From a virus, in IMG/VR virus record IMGVR_UViG_3300043429_000373, positions 1-27,442 of that record: a stretch of DNA of 27,442 bases. One strand, written 5' to 3'. Positions within the stretch are counted from its first letter, which is position 1, and every line of letters begins with the position of its first letter. The position numbers were made by a program, and so were the translations under genes. This document shows positions 5,205 to 27,442 of the stretch, one piece after another. The notes under the pieces are model-generated. The model was given only the letters and a program-made list of their open reading frames with translations, did not search any database and was not told the DNA's origin.

Positions 5205-5419
5205 TACTTCACCTTTGGCGGACGGCCCCGCCGTTTGGGTGCCGCGCCATCAGGTGACTTACCGTAGGAGACAGGGGCAACTGCGGTTGTCGGCTCGTCT
5301 GCCTGTGGCGCGGCATGATCGTCGGCCCATCCGTTAGAACGGAGTTGGGCTTCTTCCATTGAGTTGTATGCGTTGTGCCATCCGTGCGCCGGATGTTGCA
5401 TGCGTAGCGGATAGGTCAT
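5204..5419 (-). CDS. Small protein with AT-hook-like C-terminus, 71 aa
   Basis: The N-terminus contains HPAHGWHNAYNSMEEAQLRS, a short aromatic segment seen in small phage proteins encoded before connector genes. The C-terminus is KRRGRPPKVK, which matches the AT-hook core (RGRP flanked by basic residues). AT-hooks bind the minor groove of AT-rich DNA; here the tail might equally contact packaged DNA or only be a basic tail. The gene is joined by ATGA to the upstream glycosyltransferase fusion and by TAATG to the gp4-like gene. No function is established. Confidence 0.7.
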   Translation of the reverse strand: MTYPLRMQHPAHGWHNAYNSMEEAQLRSNGWADDHAAPQADEPTTAVAPVSYGKSPDGAAPKRRGRPPKVK

Positions 5420-6666
5420 AGCTTGGTGATAAGTGCTGCTCTACCGAGAGGTTGAACTGTGCGCTTGTGGAATGTGGCCCACTCGTTGACCTTGCGAGCG
5501 TATACCGGATCGGACTTGTAATCGTCAACGACTAGAACCTCGCACATGGGCGCTATTACATCAAAGAACTTGCCCCGTGTCCCGAAGAATCTCGGCGGTC
5601 CATCGCAAAAACCTAGCGCGTATTTCTTCGGCAACTCGAACTGTTCGATGTCATACCAAAACTCCTTTAGCGGGGCGGTGCAGACACCGACGTTAGAAAC
5701 TCCAGCTTGCTCGGCCCATGCAATCGTTTGCGCAGCCCATACCGGAGAATGCTCTAGCGCGTAGACCTTTTGATCCGTCACCGCCGCCATCATCACGGAA
5801 CTGATGCCCGAGCCGGTTTCAATGATCGGGCCTCGGCACTTGCGAGCCACACCGACAACCAATGCCAAAACGCCGGGATCAGCGGCCCAATTGTTCCCGA
5901 TGTACTTGCAGACCTCGTTGTAATCGCCCTCGTCTTCATTTCCTGCCCGGAACTTCGGCACAAGGTGTGCAAGGGTCTGCCCAGACAAGCGGCGGATCTG
6001 TGACGCCAAGCTGTCGGTGATAACCGTTTTGGCTGTATGCCCTAGGCAAAGCTCTGCGTCGGCGTAAATCCTTCCTCCCATTGCTCGCCAGCGATTGCAG
6101 AACGCAATATCTCCACCCCAGCGCGTCCCGTCCTTGTCTGGGTCAGGTCGATCAAAGACCATCGCCGTCAAGTCCAGTTTGTCCCAATACTTCGGCGCAC
6201 GCTCGGCCATTGATTCGAGCACGTACCGTTTGATTTTCAGGAATCCGGTCGGCAGCCCTTCTACTTCGAGCATGCCTTCAGTCGATTGCGCGCCGTCCTT
6301 CAACCTAACGGGCATGTTGTCGCTGTGCTCCCTTCTGTAAGGGTACACACCGCCGACTAGATCGACATTGCGGCTGCACAATTGGACTAGGGATTCAGGT
6401 TCCCAGCTCACGTCAGCGTCGAGAAACACTAACTCGTCGCAGTCTGACGCGAGGAAATCTCGAACGACGGCATTGCGCGCATCGTCAACGTGGCAATTGC
6501 CTTGCAGCAATAGATAGGCGGTTTGCACTCCGGCAGACTCTAGGGCCTGCCTACTTCGTGAAATCGAGAAGGTGTAAGCGGCGGAAGGATCGTCGTAACT
6601 GGTTGTCGCCAGCATGACCTTGCGCTTCGTTCGCGGTTCGCCTTCGTCGTAAAACTGATTGCTCAT
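5416..6666 (-). CDS. Glycosyltransferase-methyltransferase fusion protein
   Basis: This 416-aa protein has two parts. Residues about 15-220 look like a GT-A glycosyltransferase: KVMLATTSYD at the start, a DxD motif in LVFLDADVSW (residues 83-85), VGGVYPYR, and a late H210 in ELCLGH that could complete the metal site. Residues about 255-416 look like a Rossmann SAM methyltransferase: IIETGSGISSVMMA (motif I, about 281-294), VYALEHSP (the acidic residue after strand 2), GFCDGPPRFFGTRG, and an acidic strand end at VLVVDD. Both enzyme calls rest on visible motifs; the substrate is unknown. It lies within the capsid-connector block, after a terminator, so it may modify a virion protein or host glycan. 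The ATG at 6666 has only a weak GGGG upstream. Confidence 0.8.
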   Translation of the reverse strand: MSNQFYDEGEPRTKRKVMLATTSYDDPSAAYTFSISRSRQALESAGVQTAYLLLQGNCHVDDARNAVVRDFLASDCDELVFLDADVSWEPESLVQLCSRNVDLVGGVYPYRREHSDNMPVRLKDGAQSTEGMLEVEGLPTGFLKIKRYVLESMAERAPKYWDKLDLTAMVFDRPDPDKDGTRWGGDIAFCNRWRAMGGRIYADAELCLGHTAKTVITDSLASQIRRLSGQTLAHLVPKFRAGNEDEGDYNEVCKYIGNNWAADPGVLALVVGVARKCRGPIIETGSGISSVMMAAVTDQKVYALEHSPVWAAQTIAWAEQAGVSNVGVCTAPLKEFWYDIEQFELPKKYALGFCDGPPRFFGTRGKFFDVIAPMCEVLVVDDYKSDPVYARKVNEWATFHKRTVQPLGRAALITKL

Positions 6667-20661: not shown

Positions 20662-21269
20662 ACCTGAGTCGCCCATGCTCTGCACTCGTTGGCATTGACT
20701 ACCCGCTTAACCACATCCGGCAACCATCGCTTGTCCACAAACGGCGCGGCAATGGTGATCTTGGTGTCTTTGGTGATAACAGCCTCGCCTTCCCATTGCT
20801 TCACTTTGGGCTTTTCCTTGGCCTTCACTACCGTCATCTTCGGGCCGTGCCGACGCTCGCGGGCTTTATCTAGCTGCACCCTGCGCCGTATTTTGCCGGC
20901 CAAGCTCTTGTCAGCGTTTACACCTAGTTTGCTGGCCCGGTATCGCACCGATATCACTGTTCGCCCGGTAAGCTGGGCTACGTAAGCCCCACCGTGCGCT
21001 TCGTAGTGCTTCCGCAGCAAGTGATCCTCGGCCATAGTCCATTCCTTTGTCGGATTCTTGCCTGACCTGATGCCAAGGAGCTTTGCGCGCATGCACACAG
21101 CCTTTTCGGTGCGTTCTAGGCGGCTTGTCACTGCCGCATATCCCCCTAATGGGTAGTGTTCCCGCAGGATTGCATCTTCGTCCGGCGTCCATGCGTTGGG
21201 CTTTTTGCCTTGAGGCGGCAGCTTGCGGGTTCCGTGTTGCATCTTGGCTGTAAGTTCTTCAATGTTCAC
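20658..21269 (-). CDS. Tandem Myb/SANT-like DNA-binding protein, 203 aa
   Basis: Two homologous helical units are visible: WTPDEDAILREHYPLGGYAA then VTSRLERTEKAVCMRAKLLG (27-66), and WTMAEDHLLRKHYEAHGGAY then VAQLTGRTVISVRYRASKLG (77-115). Each has the W-x-x-x-E-D-x-x-L-x-x-x-Y plus 'R-T-x-x-x-x-x-x-R-A-x-x-L-G' pattern of Myb/SANT or GcrA-like helix-turn-helix domains. A basic linker follows, then a separate beta-rich C-terminal part ending ECRAWATQV. It is probably a DNA-binding regulator of phage or host genes. The GTG at 21269 makes a GTGA overlap and has GAGG upstream. Confidence 0.72.
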   Translation of the reverse strand: MNIEELTAKMQHGTRKLPPQGKKPNAWTPDEDAILREHYPLGGYAAVTSRLERTEKAVCMRAKLLGIRSGKNPTKEWTMAEDHLLRKHYEAHGGAYVAQLTGRTVISVRYRASKLGVNADKSLAGKIRRRVQLDKARERRHGPKMTVVKAKEKPKVKQWEGEAVITKDTKITIAAPFVDKRWLPDVVKRVVNANECRAWATQV

Positions 21270-21952
21270 AGTGTTGCCTCTATGAATTTGGCGGCGACCT
21301 GCGGGACGATGGCATTGCCGTAGGCTCGCATTGCGCCCATTCGACGGGGTAGCCCATCCTCGAGCGCCAACTCCTGTTTGACACCTCTATGTCGCGGCAC
21401 CCCGGCCACTTGCTGCGCATCGCTGGCGATCCTTGGTTCGCCGTGCATGTCGGCGTGGCCTGCAAAGTAAATCCGAGGGCGCGCATGGTCAAAACCGACA
21501 GCACAAGCCGGGAGAACACACGCCCCGACTTGGTAACCCAGTGCTTCCAAGTCATCGCAGACCCAATCAATCCAATCTCCTGCATCGACAACCTGCTCGC
21601 CAAAGACCGCTCGAGGTTTGCTTGCAGCGATGATCCGTGCCCAAACAGGCCAGAGATGCCGATCGTCTTCGTGCCTCTTGTCTTTCCCGCCGCTGGCGCT
21701 GCTGAACGGTTGGCAGGGACAAGAGCCTGTCCAAACAGGTCGGTCATCTGGCCATCCTGCAAGCCGCAGGGCGTAGCTCCATCCTCCAATGCCTGCGAAG
21801 AAGTGGCATTGTGTGTATCCGCGCAGGTCGTCAGGTCTGACATCGACGATGCTCCTTGTGTCAACGTCGCCGGGTGCAATATGCCCGGCTGCAATCAGGT
21901 TGCGTAGCCACTGCGCCGCGAACTTGTCGATTTCGTTGTAATAGGCGCTCAC
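21266..21952 (-). CDS. Compact DNA (cytosine-5) methyltransferase, 228 aa
   Basis: All the main C5-methyltransferase motifs are visible. Motif I is CHFFAGIGGWSYALRLAGW (49-67). Motif IV is GSCPCQPFSSA with the likely catalytic Cys at about 80. Motif VI is FGEQV (117-121) in place of the usual ENV. Motif VIII is ARPRIYFAGH (157-166), and motif X is AYGNAIVPQVAAKFIEA near the C-terminus. It would add a methyl group to cytosine C5 in phage DNA to resist host restriction. It is much shorter than typical Dcm-type enzymes and has almost no room for a target-recognition domain between VIII and IX. The GTG at 21952 overlaps ninG by GTGA and follows AAGGG. Confidence 0.85.
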   Translation of the reverse strand: MSAYYNEIDKFAAQWLRNLIAAGHIAPGDVDTRSIVDVRPDDLRGYTQCHFFAGIGGWSYALRLAGWPDDRPVWTGSCPCQPFSSASGGKDKRHEDDRHLWPVWARIIAASKPRAVFGEQVVDAGDWIDWVCDDLEALGYQVGACVLPACAVGFDHARPRIYFAGHADMHGEPRIASDAQQVAGVPRHRGVKQELALEDGLPRRMGAMRAYGNAIVPQVAAKFIEATL

Positions 21953-24402: not shown

Positions 24403-24926
24403 GCTTTGTCCAATCTGGCAAGCGCAAGCTCGTCAACTGCACCAGGGTGAAAAAGCTTTTTCTTCTTTTCCCTGTCTGCAACGGCGTCGCCGATCTCCTT
24501 AAAGTACGCCGCATACTCTTTCCCGCCCAAGTGGATTCTTGAGCGCCAAAGCCCTGTTGCTTTGTGATAAGACACGCCAATATGACCACTGCGGTTGTCG
24601 GATCGCCTGTTGTGCATGTTTTGCGTATTCAATGAGCGTGAGGCAAGTCTAAGGTTGCAAAACCTGTTGTCGGTTCTGATGCCGTTCATATGGTCTATCT
24701 CCATTGTCGGCATCTCCCCCGTCTTGTGAAGCCACGCGATTCGATGCGCATAAACCTTAACGTTTTTGATTGACGTAACTACATATCCATTTTTCGCAAC
24801 GGTTGATACGACACGCCCAGAATTTGCAGTTCCTCCCCTTCTGATCTTCCATGTCAAAAGACCCGTTTCTTCGTTGTAGTCCATAAGAGATCTAACAAGG
24901 TCAGCAGTTATTTCTTCTCTTCGCAT
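24399..24926 (-). CDS. HNH endonuclease with AP2-like domain, likely mobile
   Basis: The 175-aa protein has the HNH core: H61 in VYAHRIAWLHKTG, then MEIDHMNGIRTDNRFCNLRL with D78-H79 and N87. An AP2-like DNA-binding segment follows, SGHIGVSYHKATGLWRSRIH then LGGKEYAAYFK (113-142). These are features of the HNH/AP2 endonucleases that spread between phage genomes. The last residues, DELALARLDKA, closely resemble the end of the upstream mazG-like protein (DELAIARLDKQ). The DNA of this shared part forms repeats flanking the gene, which suggests an insertion. It overlaps the end of the mazG-like gene by 19 nt. Confidence 0.85.
   Translation of the reverse strand: MRREEITADLVRSLMDYNEETGLLTWKIRRGGTANSGRVVSTVAKNGYVVTSIKNVKVYAHRIAWLHKTGEMPTMEIDHMNGIRTDNRFCNLRLASRSLNTQNMHNRRSDNRSGHIGVSYHKATGLWRSRIHLGGKEYAAYFKEIGDAVADREKKKKLFHPGAVDELALARLDKA
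24403..24435. repeat. Imperfect direct repeat A flanking the HNH gene
   Basis: This 33-nt segment encodes the end of the HNH protein (DELALARLDK). It aligns to 24928-24959 with one 1-nt gap and 24 identities in 29 aligned bases. It lies directly before the ATG of the zinc-ribbon gene. It is probably the remnant of the original 3' end of the mazG-like gene or of the HNH homology arm. Confidence 0.7.
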
Positions 24927-25246
24927 TGCTTGTCCAGTCTTGCTATTGCAAGCTCGTCAGTATACTGGATAGGAAATCTAACCTCCAGCTTCGCCACGTT
25001 CGCCGCGATTACTTCGTCTCTGGTGACGCCTAGAAGCCCTCGCAGGGCCTCCATATACCATTCGATGTCGCCTAGCTCCTCGATGGCGTTAGCGCGGTCC
25101 AGGGGCTTGCCGTAGACCCAGAGCTTTTTCACTGCGTCCAGCAGCTCACCGGCTTCTCCTGAGATTCCGACTGCGCAGTGCATCAGGCCGTCGTCGCCAG
25201 TGTGGCGCTTGGTGAAGCGTGCGGCTACAAAGTCAGAGTAGTTCAT
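24908..25246 (-). CDS. MazG-like nucleotide pyrophosphohydrolase, 112 aa
   Basis: The protein has the all-alpha NTP pyrophosphohydrolase pattern: VGISGEAGELLDAVKKLWVY (27-46) and AIEELGDIEWYMEALRGLLG (54-73), with the acidic residues of the E-x2-E and E-x2-D metal-binding motifs (E31, E34, E57, D60). MazG-like enzymes hydrolyse nucleoside triphosphates to monophosphates and can alter alarmone or nucleotide pools during infection. I start at the ATG at 25246, which overlaps the upstream TGA (TGATG) with GGGAG upstream; a GTG at 25249 is equally possible. The C-terminus (TDELAIARLDKQCEEKK) duplicates the end of the HNH protein, suggesting its own end was changed by insertion. Confidence 0.85.
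   Translation of the reverse strand: MNYSDFVAARFTKRHTGDDGLMHCAVGISGEAGELLDAVKKLWVYGKPLDRANAIEELGDIEWYMEALRGLLGVTRDEVIAANVAKLEVRFPIQYTDELAIARLDKQCEEKK
24928..24959. repeat. Imperfect direct repeat B flanking the HNH gene
   Basis: This 32-nt segment encodes the end of the mazG-like protein (DELAIARLDK) and lies directly before the HNH ATG. It pairs with 24403-24435. Each repeat copy ends just before the start codon of the next gene (the HNH gene here, the zinc-ribbon gene at the other copy). Confidence 0.7.
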
Positions 25247-26655
25247 CACAGTCTCCCGATAGGCAAGAAGTGATTCTTGATGTCGGCAATCTTCCCCTTG
25301 TAGCCAACAATGATTTTCTGCTCCCGCTTTGGGAACTTGCGAACGTGCAGGGTGCGCTTCGCGTGTGCCAGCCGTGTGAATTCAGCCTCGACATAAACGA
25401 TACGGTTGTATACCGATAGGCCGCAGTCTCGCATCAGTGTTTCAGTGTCGGCCTCGTGGCAGTAGTACGCGCCATTCTTGTCTCTGCTGTCTCCTGTCAT
25501 AACGACGAAAAACCTGTTGTCGTTAAGCGCGTCGATTGCTTTTCGATAGCCAGCGAATAGTAGAGCCAAGAATTCTTCATACGTAGGAATTGAGTTCAAC
25601 TCACCTGGCGGCGGTTTCCCATCGTAGTCAAGATACTCCTCTACCTTGTAATACGGCGGGCAAGTGAACACCATATCGAATTTGCCCTCTGGTTCGTACT
25701 TTGAACTATCTGACTGAATCCACTTAACGCGCCCATCGAACTCCGAACAGATGGCGTTGTTCGCATCGACCTGGTTTTGCCTTATCTCGCTCGCTAGGTA
25801 TTCATAGCCGCACGCCCCTGCGATGTAGCCCATTTGAACACCACCCCCGAACGGGTTGTAAACCCTGCCACCGCCCTTCGGCATGAAGAATCGCGCAATG
25901 ACTTCGCACGCAAGCGGGTCAAGCACTGATGCGTTCCCGTTGTGGGACTTGGTGGTTGCAACGACTTCGCCAGATTCATCGACGTGGCGCCGCGTGTTCA
26001 CAACGTTGCTGTACCCGTTTTCTCCTTGCCAGCAGCCATCACGAGTTGCGTATCCGGCGTTTGCAATTCCGGCCCGCTCGCCTGCCTCATCAATGCGTGC
26101 TTTCCACTCTTTCTTCAGGCGCAACCAGTCGCCCTTAGTGGTGATCCAGACGTTAGTCATGGTCACGTGGGCCAATAGCTTCATTCGTACATCCGACAGG
26201 TTTCCTTTGACCATGTAGTGAAACCCGCTCATTTGAAGATAGGTTTCAAACCCTAGGCTCTCAAACAACTTAGGCGTTTCGAACTTGCTTTTCGGGTCCG
26301 TGGTTATCAACGCAGGATAGTTGTCGGTGTTCTCTGCAACTACTCTCTCGACTAGCTCTTTGTAGAGCGCGGGAGTGAAAATCAACGGGTCAATTACTGA
26401 CTGCAACAAGCAAAACTCGCGCACCTCATGGTTGCGCTGGAATGTCATAAAACCTGCGAACTCACCATTCGCAAGCAAAACGACTGCACTGTGAATCTGC
26501 ATGTTTTTGCGGGCCGCTCGCTCTGCAATGCCGTCCTCAATCGCCAGCTTTGCAATCGCCTTTTCATATCCTGACCCAATGACCGTGGGCAATGTTATCC
26601 AGCCAACGTCATTCGAAAAAAGCCCCCTCGTGCTGTCACACATCACTGCGCTCAT
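25246..26655 (-). CDS. GNAT-like domain fused to an amino-type DNA methyltransferase, 469 aa
   Basis: Residues about 20-150 have a GNAT-acetyltransferase-like layout: IHSAVVLLANGEFAGFMTFQ, then a CoA-site-like but degenerate helix region (PLIFTPALYKELVERVVAEN), and LFESLGFETYLQMSGFHYMV as the final strands. The canonical (R/Q)xxGx(G/A) loop is missing. Residues about 240-455 are a SAM methyltransferase with RVYNPFGGGVQMGYIAGACG (motif I) and DMVFTCPPYYKVEEY (catalytic motif IV), of the type that modifies the amino group of adenine or cytosine. Other family parts, FFVVMTGDSRDKNGAYY and FPKREQKIIVGYKG, are also seen. The ATG at 26655 makes an ATGA overlap and has AGGAGAG six bases upstream. Target and added group are unknown. 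Confidence 0.78.
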   Translation of the reverse strand: MSAVMCDSTRGLFSNDVGWITLPTVIGSGYEKAIAKLAIEDGIAERAARKNMQIHSAVVLLANGEFAGFMTFQRNHEVREFCLLQSVIDPLIFTPALYKELVERVVAENTDNYPALITTDPKSKFETPKLFESLGFETYLQMSGFHYMVKGNLSDVRMKLLAHVTMTNVWITTKGDWLRLKKEWKARIDEAGERAGIANAGYATRDGCWQGENGYSNVVNTRRHVDESGEVVATTKSHNGNASVLDPLACEVIARFFMPKGGGRVYNPFGGGVQMGYIAGACGYEYLASEIRQNQVDANNAICSEFDGRVKWIQSDSSKYEPEGKFDMVFTCPPYYKVEEYLDYDGKPPPGELNSIPTYEEFLALLFAGYRKAIDALNDNRFFVVMTGDSRDKNGAYYCHEADTETLMRDCGLSVYNRIVYVEAEFTRLAHAKRTLHVRKFPKREQKIIVGYKGKIADIKNHFLPIGRL

Positions 26656-27442
26656 TGCTTGCTCTCCTGGAAAAGATCGGCGCGATGGCCGATAGTTGAC
26701 GGCATGGAACTCATGCCGCATTGATCGGGACACGTTGCACAGTGCCCGACGTAAGCTGTATCTGACGCGATTGAAATAGTTCGGCGCGTCTTGATGTCGA
26801 TGGTTGTCTTTAGCTTCACAACGCCGTCACGGGCCAGCGGGTGTGATTGCGCGATCCGCAGCGGGTTGTCGATAGCTCCCGGCGCTGCCAGCAGCCGAGA
26901 CTGAGTGGCGCGCATATCAGCATCAGTAAAGTCGCATGACACCACCCGCGAAACGCTATGCCCGCCCGCTTCCGTGTAGCGCGCAATTTGCCGCTCACGA
27001 TGCGCAAGTTGTGCCGTGGTGTCGAGCGCCGAAACCGAAGTATTTAGCACCGCACCGACACTTGCAAGCCTGCGGAATTGTTCATCGCTGGCTCGCAGCC
27101 AATGCTTCGTCACGACAATCGGCGTAGCCCATGCAGACAGCCATTCAACAGTGTCAACGGTTTCAGACCAATCATGGCTTGGGTCGCCCATCGTGCCCAC
27201 ACGAAAGAAGTGTTGCGGCGCGGCCTTAACAGCGTCCTCTATTTGCTTGGCTTGTGCATGTGTCGTTACCTTTCGGCTAACTGGTTGCGCAAAGTCAATG
27301 CCACGATACTTTGCAATCGCTTCTGCGTAACATGCGCCATAGCAACCGCGTTCGCCATTCGCTGCAATTCCACCGGAGCAACCCTTCACGGTGTCAATGT
27401 CTAGCACGCCCTTGCGGTTATCGTCCGCAGTGAGAATAGGAG
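26652..27442 (-). CDS. Radical-SAM-like Cys-motif protein, 5' end beyond the window
   Basis: The reading frame is open to the right edge (PILTADDNRKGVLDIDTVKG lies in frame), so the GTG at 27407 is probably not the true start. Near the start, LDIDTVKGCSGGIAANGERG and then CYGACYAEAIAKYRG give a C-x11-C-x3-C cluster with CYA. A TIM-barrel-like part follows (FFRVGTMGDPSHDW; PIVVTKHWLRASDEQFRRLA; GAVLNTSVSALDTTAQLAHR). Near the C-terminus YVGHCATCPDQCG is a second Cys cluster. Two Cys clusters and the barrel suggest an Fe-S enzyme related to radical SAM proteins, but the spacing differs from the standard CxxxCxxC, so the class is not certain. It overlaps the methyltransferase fusion by ATGA. Confidence 0.65.
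   Translation of the reverse strand, partial: PILTADDNRKGVLDIDTVKGCSGGIAANGERGCYGACYAEAIAKYRGIDFAQPVSRKVTTHAQAKQIEDAVKAAPQHFFRVGTMGDPSHDWSETVDTVEWLSAWATPIVVTKHWLRASDEQFRRLASVGAVLNTSVSALDTTAQLAHRERQIARYTEAGGHSVSRVVSCDFTDADMRATQSRLLAAPGAIDNPLRIAQSHPLARDGVVKLKTTIDIKTRRTISIASDTAYVGHCATCPDQCGMSSMPSTIGHRADLFQESKQ
26662..26668 (-). promoter_or_regulatory. Ribosome-binding site deciding the start of the GNAT-methyltransferase gene
   Basis: AGGAGAG lies six bases before the ATG at 26655. This, with the ATGA overlap, favours that start over in-frame codons at 26733 (GTG) and 26721 (ATG), which are inside the upstream gene. Confidence 0.75.

Follow-up and report, generated by a model that had tools for sequence, protein, structure and literature searches.

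A radical SAM-GNAT-methyltransferase cassette of uncultivated viruses with a probable role in nucleic acid base hypermodification

A cassette comprising a radical SAM-fold protein, a GNAT-fold domain, and a methyltransferase (MTase)-like domain was analyzed in a 27,442-nucleotide stretch of DNA from an uncultivated bacterial virus (IMG/VR record IMGVR_UViG_3300043429_000373, positions 1-27,442), which is referred to here in its entirety as the window. The cassette probably builds a chemical decoration on a nucleic acid base, and the target most likely is the virus's own DNA. The probability that it constitutes a self-contained viral module for base hypermodification was estimated at approximately 0.58. 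This reading is drawn from the predicted radical SAM and GNAT folds, the linkage and recurrent fusion of the component parts, the kinship of the MTase domain with ParB-MTases, the genetic contexts of stand-alone radical SAM relatives, and the coupling of sister MTases to SAM decarboxylase.

The 3′ end of the window includes two overlapping genes on the minus strand in the list of open reading frames. The gene for the radical SAM-fold protein, designated the Cys protein (26652..27442, minus strand), is cut at its 5′ end by the end of the window and lacks ~5 N-terminal codons, as judged from the near-identical locus L002 (IMGVR_UViG_3300043425_000575) in which the start is visible. The second gene (25246..26655, minus strand) specifies a GNAT-MTase fusion of 469 amino acids and is coupled to the Cys protein gene by the ATGA overlap (26652..26655, minus strand) which the earlier note had described. 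The same note had started the fusion at GTG 26733. However, the long frame from this codon adds 26 residues that are not common to relatives, most of which align from residue ~38, whereas ATG 26655 forms an ATGA with the stop codon of the upstream gene and lies a few bases after AGGAGA. Thus, GTG 26733 probably is wrong and the start was reassigned to ATG 26655 on these sequence features. A MazG-like pyrophosphohydrolase gene (24908-25249) directly follows the cassette in the window, and short MazG-like open reading frames also are positioned after the cassette in loci L027 and L112. The same virus encodes a short C5-cytosine DNA methyltransferase of 228 amino acids (21266-21952; PF00145), as well as a 416-amino acid protein (5416-6666) amid structural genes in which a part with the look of a glycosyltransferase precedes a methyltransferase-like part and for which there was no Pfam match at E 0.01.

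The Cys protein had been proposed to possess two cysteine clusters and a barrel-like core of Fe-S type, and both features were borne out. The AlphaFold model (pLDDT 89.5, pTM 0.88) contains a confident radical SAM barrel of the (beta/alpha)6 type. The best 50 matches among solved structures in VIA-align all were radical SAM enzymes with Z scores of 12.2-9.1, which exceed the 7-8 that the tool gives as typical of models lacking a clear match. The ten best Foldseek matches in the PDB were radical SAM enzymes or close kin with modest E-values (2.5e-3 and worse), and the best named matches among viral models also were radical SAM proteins. Spore photoproduct lyase and viperin were equally at the top of the list of folds and no specific radical SAM function was read from it. 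The best Pfam match of the family consensus was Radical_SAM (PF04055; E 0.0094), although the score of 16.6 bits was below the gathering score of 29.5. The first cysteine cluster, C21-X11-C33-X3-C37 (27330..27380, minus strand), is nearly invariant in the family alignment (A1) and sits directly after the model strand formed by residues 18-20. Its spacing in the family is C-X9..12-C-X3-C (107 instances counted) instead of the canonical CX3CX2C; nevertheless, the cluster likely corresponds to the radical SAM [4Fe-4S] site. The second cluster, C234-X2-C237-X3-C241 (26718..26741, minus strand), was invariant in 22 sequences of the same alignment and possibly provides an auxiliary cluster. The six conserved cysteines would hold Fe-S clusters. 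The non-canonical spacing and the sub-threshold Pfam match count against hypermodification. The Cys protein was accepted as a radical SAM fold with atypical cysteine spacing. Radical SAM-like phage proteins of the DUF5131/GP88 type have a GC..CYA-type cysteine motif in common with the family, one member of which gave a weak DUF5131 match (E 0.12), and a GP88 protein was at rank 47 in the viral fold search with the Cys protein. However, the DUF5131/GP88 proteins differ in cysteine spacing and showed no significant sequence match to the family.

Residues 14-154 of the fusion (26194..26616, minus strand) were predicted by AlphaFold to adopt a GNAT fold (pLDDT 86.8), in agreement with what had been suggested from the sequence. 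The model displays the GNAT strand order, gave a Foldseek match with an E-value of 7.7e-7, and was aligned by VIA-align with 1xeb over 131 residues (Z 16.1, rmsd 2.1). The domain has many invariant residues, including an E-F-C-L-L-Q-S motif and Glu-80 (26416..26418, minus strand) which is conserved in 49/49 sequences. In GCN5 the catalytic glutamate is located at the start of strand 4. Glu-80 is situated at the start of the same strand in the model and is, by analogy, a candidate general base. The earlier note also had considered the GNAT loop to be degenerate: the canonical Q/RxxGxG/A loop for the pyrophosphate of acyl-CoA was detected in 0/49 members. This absence counts against hypermodification, and implies that any acyl donor could be something other than a regular acyl-CoA.

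The C-terminal part of the fusion (residues 239-469; 25249..25941, minus strand) is an MTase-like domain of the ParB-MTase family. It matched the profiles PHROG 12517 (E 3.8e-42) and phrog_498, which is annotated 'DNA methyltransferase' (E 5.7e-35), and was ~24-35% identical to ParB-MTases in tblastn searches (best E 6e-32), whereas Pfam PF01555 remained below its cut-off. A match to PADLOC mads_2 (E 8e-11) covers the MTase part alone and no recurring nuclease partner was seen; a defense-system interpretation accordingly was rejected. Annotated phage relatives mostly possess ParB at the N-terminus; no ParB Pfam match was obtained with the fusion, which has the GNAT fold at this position instead. 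Thus, phage ParB-MTases (PHROG 498/12517), such as P2559S gp66 of a Croceibacter phage, that of Pseudomonas phage ZRG1, and gp77 of Listeria phage B054, share with the cassette the C-terminal domain (motif I followed by F-S/T-C-P-P-Y) and a common pre-MTase region, but the cassette has GNAT in place of ParB and has a radical SAM partner. The SAM-binding loop of motif I, NPFGGGVQ in the window (25834..25857, minus strand), is a cassette-specific variant: the cassettes have NPFGGGVQ[MF]G, ordinary ParB-MTases have FAGGSVRG, and those of the ZRG1/P2559S type have FAGD[ST]VFG. Motif IV is TCPPYY (25648..25665, minus strand), in which cysteine replaces D/N/S. In nearly all family members that were counted this motif is S/T-C-P-P-Y, in contrast to the D/N/S-P-P-Y/F of amino-MTases. 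Therefore, although the proposed fusion of GNAT to a DNA methyltransferase domain holds, the 'amino-type' label is not secure, and the suggestion that an amino base is the target loses its support.

The earlier note had inferred that the two proteins work together. In IMG/VR, 191 candidate stretches were confirmed to encode a relative of the Cys protein, and nearly all loci with this protein that were fetched had a GNAT-MTase adjacent or fused to it. The cassette is present in ~100 distinct viral sequences, often as one protein. A single radical SAM-GNAT-MTase open reading frame makes up 43 of the 97 distinct complete cassettes. The remainder are gene pairs, in which GNAT-MTase leads in 40 and the radical SAM gene in 14, the latter being the arrangement in the window. 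The fused state required 13 changes on a tree of 88 sequences built with FastTree, at least 8 of which were forced by supported branches, where support was of the local type only. That the same parts fused and separated repeatedly argues strongly for joint action of the radical SAM, GNAT, and MTase components. Moreover, no widely conserved further neighbor gene was found beside the cassette across the loci, from which the cassette looks self-sufficient. A locus in which the start of the radical SAM protein is joined to the end of the MTase (L032) was discounted as either a deletion or an assembly chimera. Six draft bacterial assemblies have the GNAT part, five of which also have the radical SAM protein. 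The exception is a Massilibacteroides metagenome-assembled genome (L112:6172-7569) in which a GNAT-MTase is encoded, but for which there was no radical SAM match in the draft genome; it is the sole such case seen and counts against hypermodification. Radical SAM relatives numbered zero among 50,697 phage records and zero among 72,556 plasmids, and none of the phage matches to the fusion in these records extended to the GNAT core. No significant and consistent match covered the radical SAM or GNAT part in PDB sequences, Pfam, NCBIfam, PHROGs, PADLOC, or annotated phages; weak matches of these parts to RavZ, RnfC, and Double Bond Reductase were taken as chance. The parts belong to known folds, but no description of their combination was found in the databases and literature examined, a scope outside which most DNA-hypermodification papers fall.

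The radical SAM protein was detected without GNAT-MTase in only five distinct loci (L042, L053, L072, L085, L095) among those long enough to tell. Each of the five has a ParB gene in its vicinity. L053, L072, and L095 also encode, near the radical SAM gene, a relative of the TET-associated glycosyltransferases, with PF20691 confirmed in the first two, and L085 has a nearby PAPS reductase gene. Iyer and Aravind are said to have predicted phage DNA base modification in such gene neighborhoods. Together with the ParB-MTase kinship, these neighbors place the family in the DNA-modification setting that had been envisaged. FkbM-like genes also occur among the neighbors of the stand-alone genes, which mostly are near to terminase genes, and in L085 a second radical SAM-like gene of DUF5131 type (L085:1585-2391) is located a few kb upstream.

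The nearest sister group of the cassette MTases comprises the ParB-MTases of ZRG1/P2559S type. A SAM decarboxylase (SpeD) gene directly follows or overlaps the ParB-MTase gene in 60/84 viral loci of this group (L133-L216; see also L127:2482-4327 and L128:2470-4111), a proportion that is not a family-wide rate because the loci were sampled in order of similarity to ZRG1 and include some near-duplicates. No SpeD gene was observed beside the cassette in 114 cassette-survey loci. Complementation has proven the SpeD protein of the isolated phage P2559S to be an AdoMet decarboxylase (PMC9992855), and this phage has no annotated spermidine synthase. The SpeD coupling suggests that enzymes of the MTase family are able to work with SAM derivatives, and that the sister group may transfer a non-methyl alkyl group, perhaps aminopropyl, from decarboxylated SAM to DNA. 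For the cassette MTase itself this is only a hint of non-methyl alkyl transfer. The suggestion is qualified by other phage SpeD homologs, which have turned into ornithine or arginine decarboxylases (PMC10407285). The ParB-MTase/SpeD pair in P2559S is directly preceded by gp65 (L128:1659-2438), an ASCH-domain gene that may encode a reader of modified bases. In the ParB-MTase of Pseudanabaena phage Pam4 (L125:2012-4501), an inserted PLP-enzyme domain of PALP type separates motifs I and IV of the MTase.

Known DNA modification systems provide partial parallels to the cassette. Mom of phage Mu, the product of which is N6-carbamoylmethyladenine, is a DNA modifier that, like the cassette GNAT, belongs to the GNAT superfamily and is without the canonical CoA loop. 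However, the invariant HY pair of Mom is absent from the cassette, and Mom is fused neither to an MTase nor to a radical SAM protein. The kinship with Mom to which the earlier note had pointed was not sustained: the hhalign P for the Mu Mom family profile was 0.11, which is not significant, and Mom is not a detectable relative. Microbacterium phage Antuna has a Mom-like gene (L122:1969-3228) in overlap with a ParB-like gene, and after it, on the opposite strand, comes a gene for tRNA-Gly(ccc); this arrangement would be consistent with an aminoacyl-tRNA as the donor in Mom-type modification. Work by Lee and colleagues in 2018 and 2022 reportedly described thymidine hypermodification in phages ViI, M6, and SP10 in which a group attached to a DNA base is elaborated by enzymes of the radical SAM, PLP, and acetyltransferase types. 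These pathways start from 5-hydroxymethyl-dU and employ separate genes, including those for a kinase and an aGPT-type transferase. Neither of these two enzymes was noticed in the open reading frame list of the window or among recurrent neighbors; the pathways are a precedent for how the cassette may work, but the cassette is not a member of them.

A plain DNA methyltransferase would leave a simple methyl mark, with GNAT and the radical SAM protein contributing to binding, regulation, or a separate step. Strictly conserved motifs I and IV and the missing acetyl-CoA loop are compatible with this alternative, but six radical SAM cysteines and many invariant GNAT residues, including Glu-80, have been kept through repeated fusion and fission, and an enzyme fold retained merely for binding would need no six cysteines; the alternative is considered unlikely. 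The radical SAM-then-GNAT order in one protein in 43 cassettes, although the window has two genes, brings to mind Elp3 of Elongator, which unites radical SAM and GNAT/KAT domains in one chain in the same order. An Elp3-like enzyme would act on RNA, with an acyl radical attacking C5 of a pyrimidine at a tRNA wobble position and the MTase capping the product. Yet the cassette has an additional MTase domain, lacks the acetyl-CoA loop, and presumably has DNA as its target. ParB fusions among relatives of the MTase, several of which are near phage terminase genes, point to a DNA setting. The cysteine spacing of Elp3 presumably also differs from that of the cassette, and with the ELP3 model TIGR01211 neither two natural fusions nor the consensus sequences gave a match listed at E 10. 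Thus, despite the precedents that Elp3 modifies U34 at C5 and that cm5U undergoes additional steps, among them conversion to the methyl ester mcm5U (PMC10018365), an RNA enzyme of this kind is rather improbable.

Two further alternatives were considered. Phage GNATs with protein targets have been described, such as Rac of phiKMV-like phages, an acyltransferase that acts on RNA polymerase (PMC7824862), and the GNAT domain similarly could acylate a host protein while being tied only physically to a modification enzyme. The constant fusion to the MTase, the repeated fusion to the radical SAM protein, and the missing CoA loop make such a host-takeover role very improbable. Reversal of DNA damage by the radical SAM protein has slimmer prospects still: spore photoproduct lyase ranks with the closest structural matches (Z 12.2), but viperin-like enzymes score equally, which reflects a common fold only, and lesion repair leaves the MTase and GNAT parts unexplained.

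For base hypermodification, the domains, their predicted folds, and their near-obligate linkage are the observations from which we infer a substrate, an order of steps, a chemistry, a product, and a protective effect. The MTase-fold domain would bind nucleic acid, most probably the replicated DNA of the virus itself, flip or otherwise present a base, and transfer a SAM-derived group to it. The radical SAM protein would generate a 5′-deoxyadenosyl radical and either remodel the transferred group or activate a base carbon, following which the GNAT domain may attach or pass on a group of the acyl or aminoacyl type. The outcome would be a bulky modified base able to shield viral DNA from host nucleases. 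The earlier proposal that the two proteins modify a base beyond simple methylation therefore is retained in view of the folds, co-occurrence, natural fusion, and DNA-modification setting, but without the kinship to Mom and the amino-base target. In a more speculative and doubtful version, the cassette would unite an alkyltransferase with a DNA-directed analog of Elp3: the radical SAM protein would attach or rearrange, by radical chemistry, a chain on a DNA base that derives from SAM or an acyl group, GNAT would deliver an acyl or aminoacyl group, the MTase fold no longer would transfer methyl, or methyl only, and the SpeD-coupled sister family would attach aminopropyl to DNA.

If the cassette indeed is a hypermodification module, a single viral protein would harbor three chemistries for rewriting a DNA base, in a lineage that was encountered among uncultivated viruses and in six draft assemblies, yet was absent from the 50,697 phage records searched. 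The repertoire of DNA hypermodification then would be wider, and the cassette would represent a compact enzyme for base chemistry. It also would furnish a concrete test of whether phage 'methyltransferases' can transfer larger SAM-derived groups.
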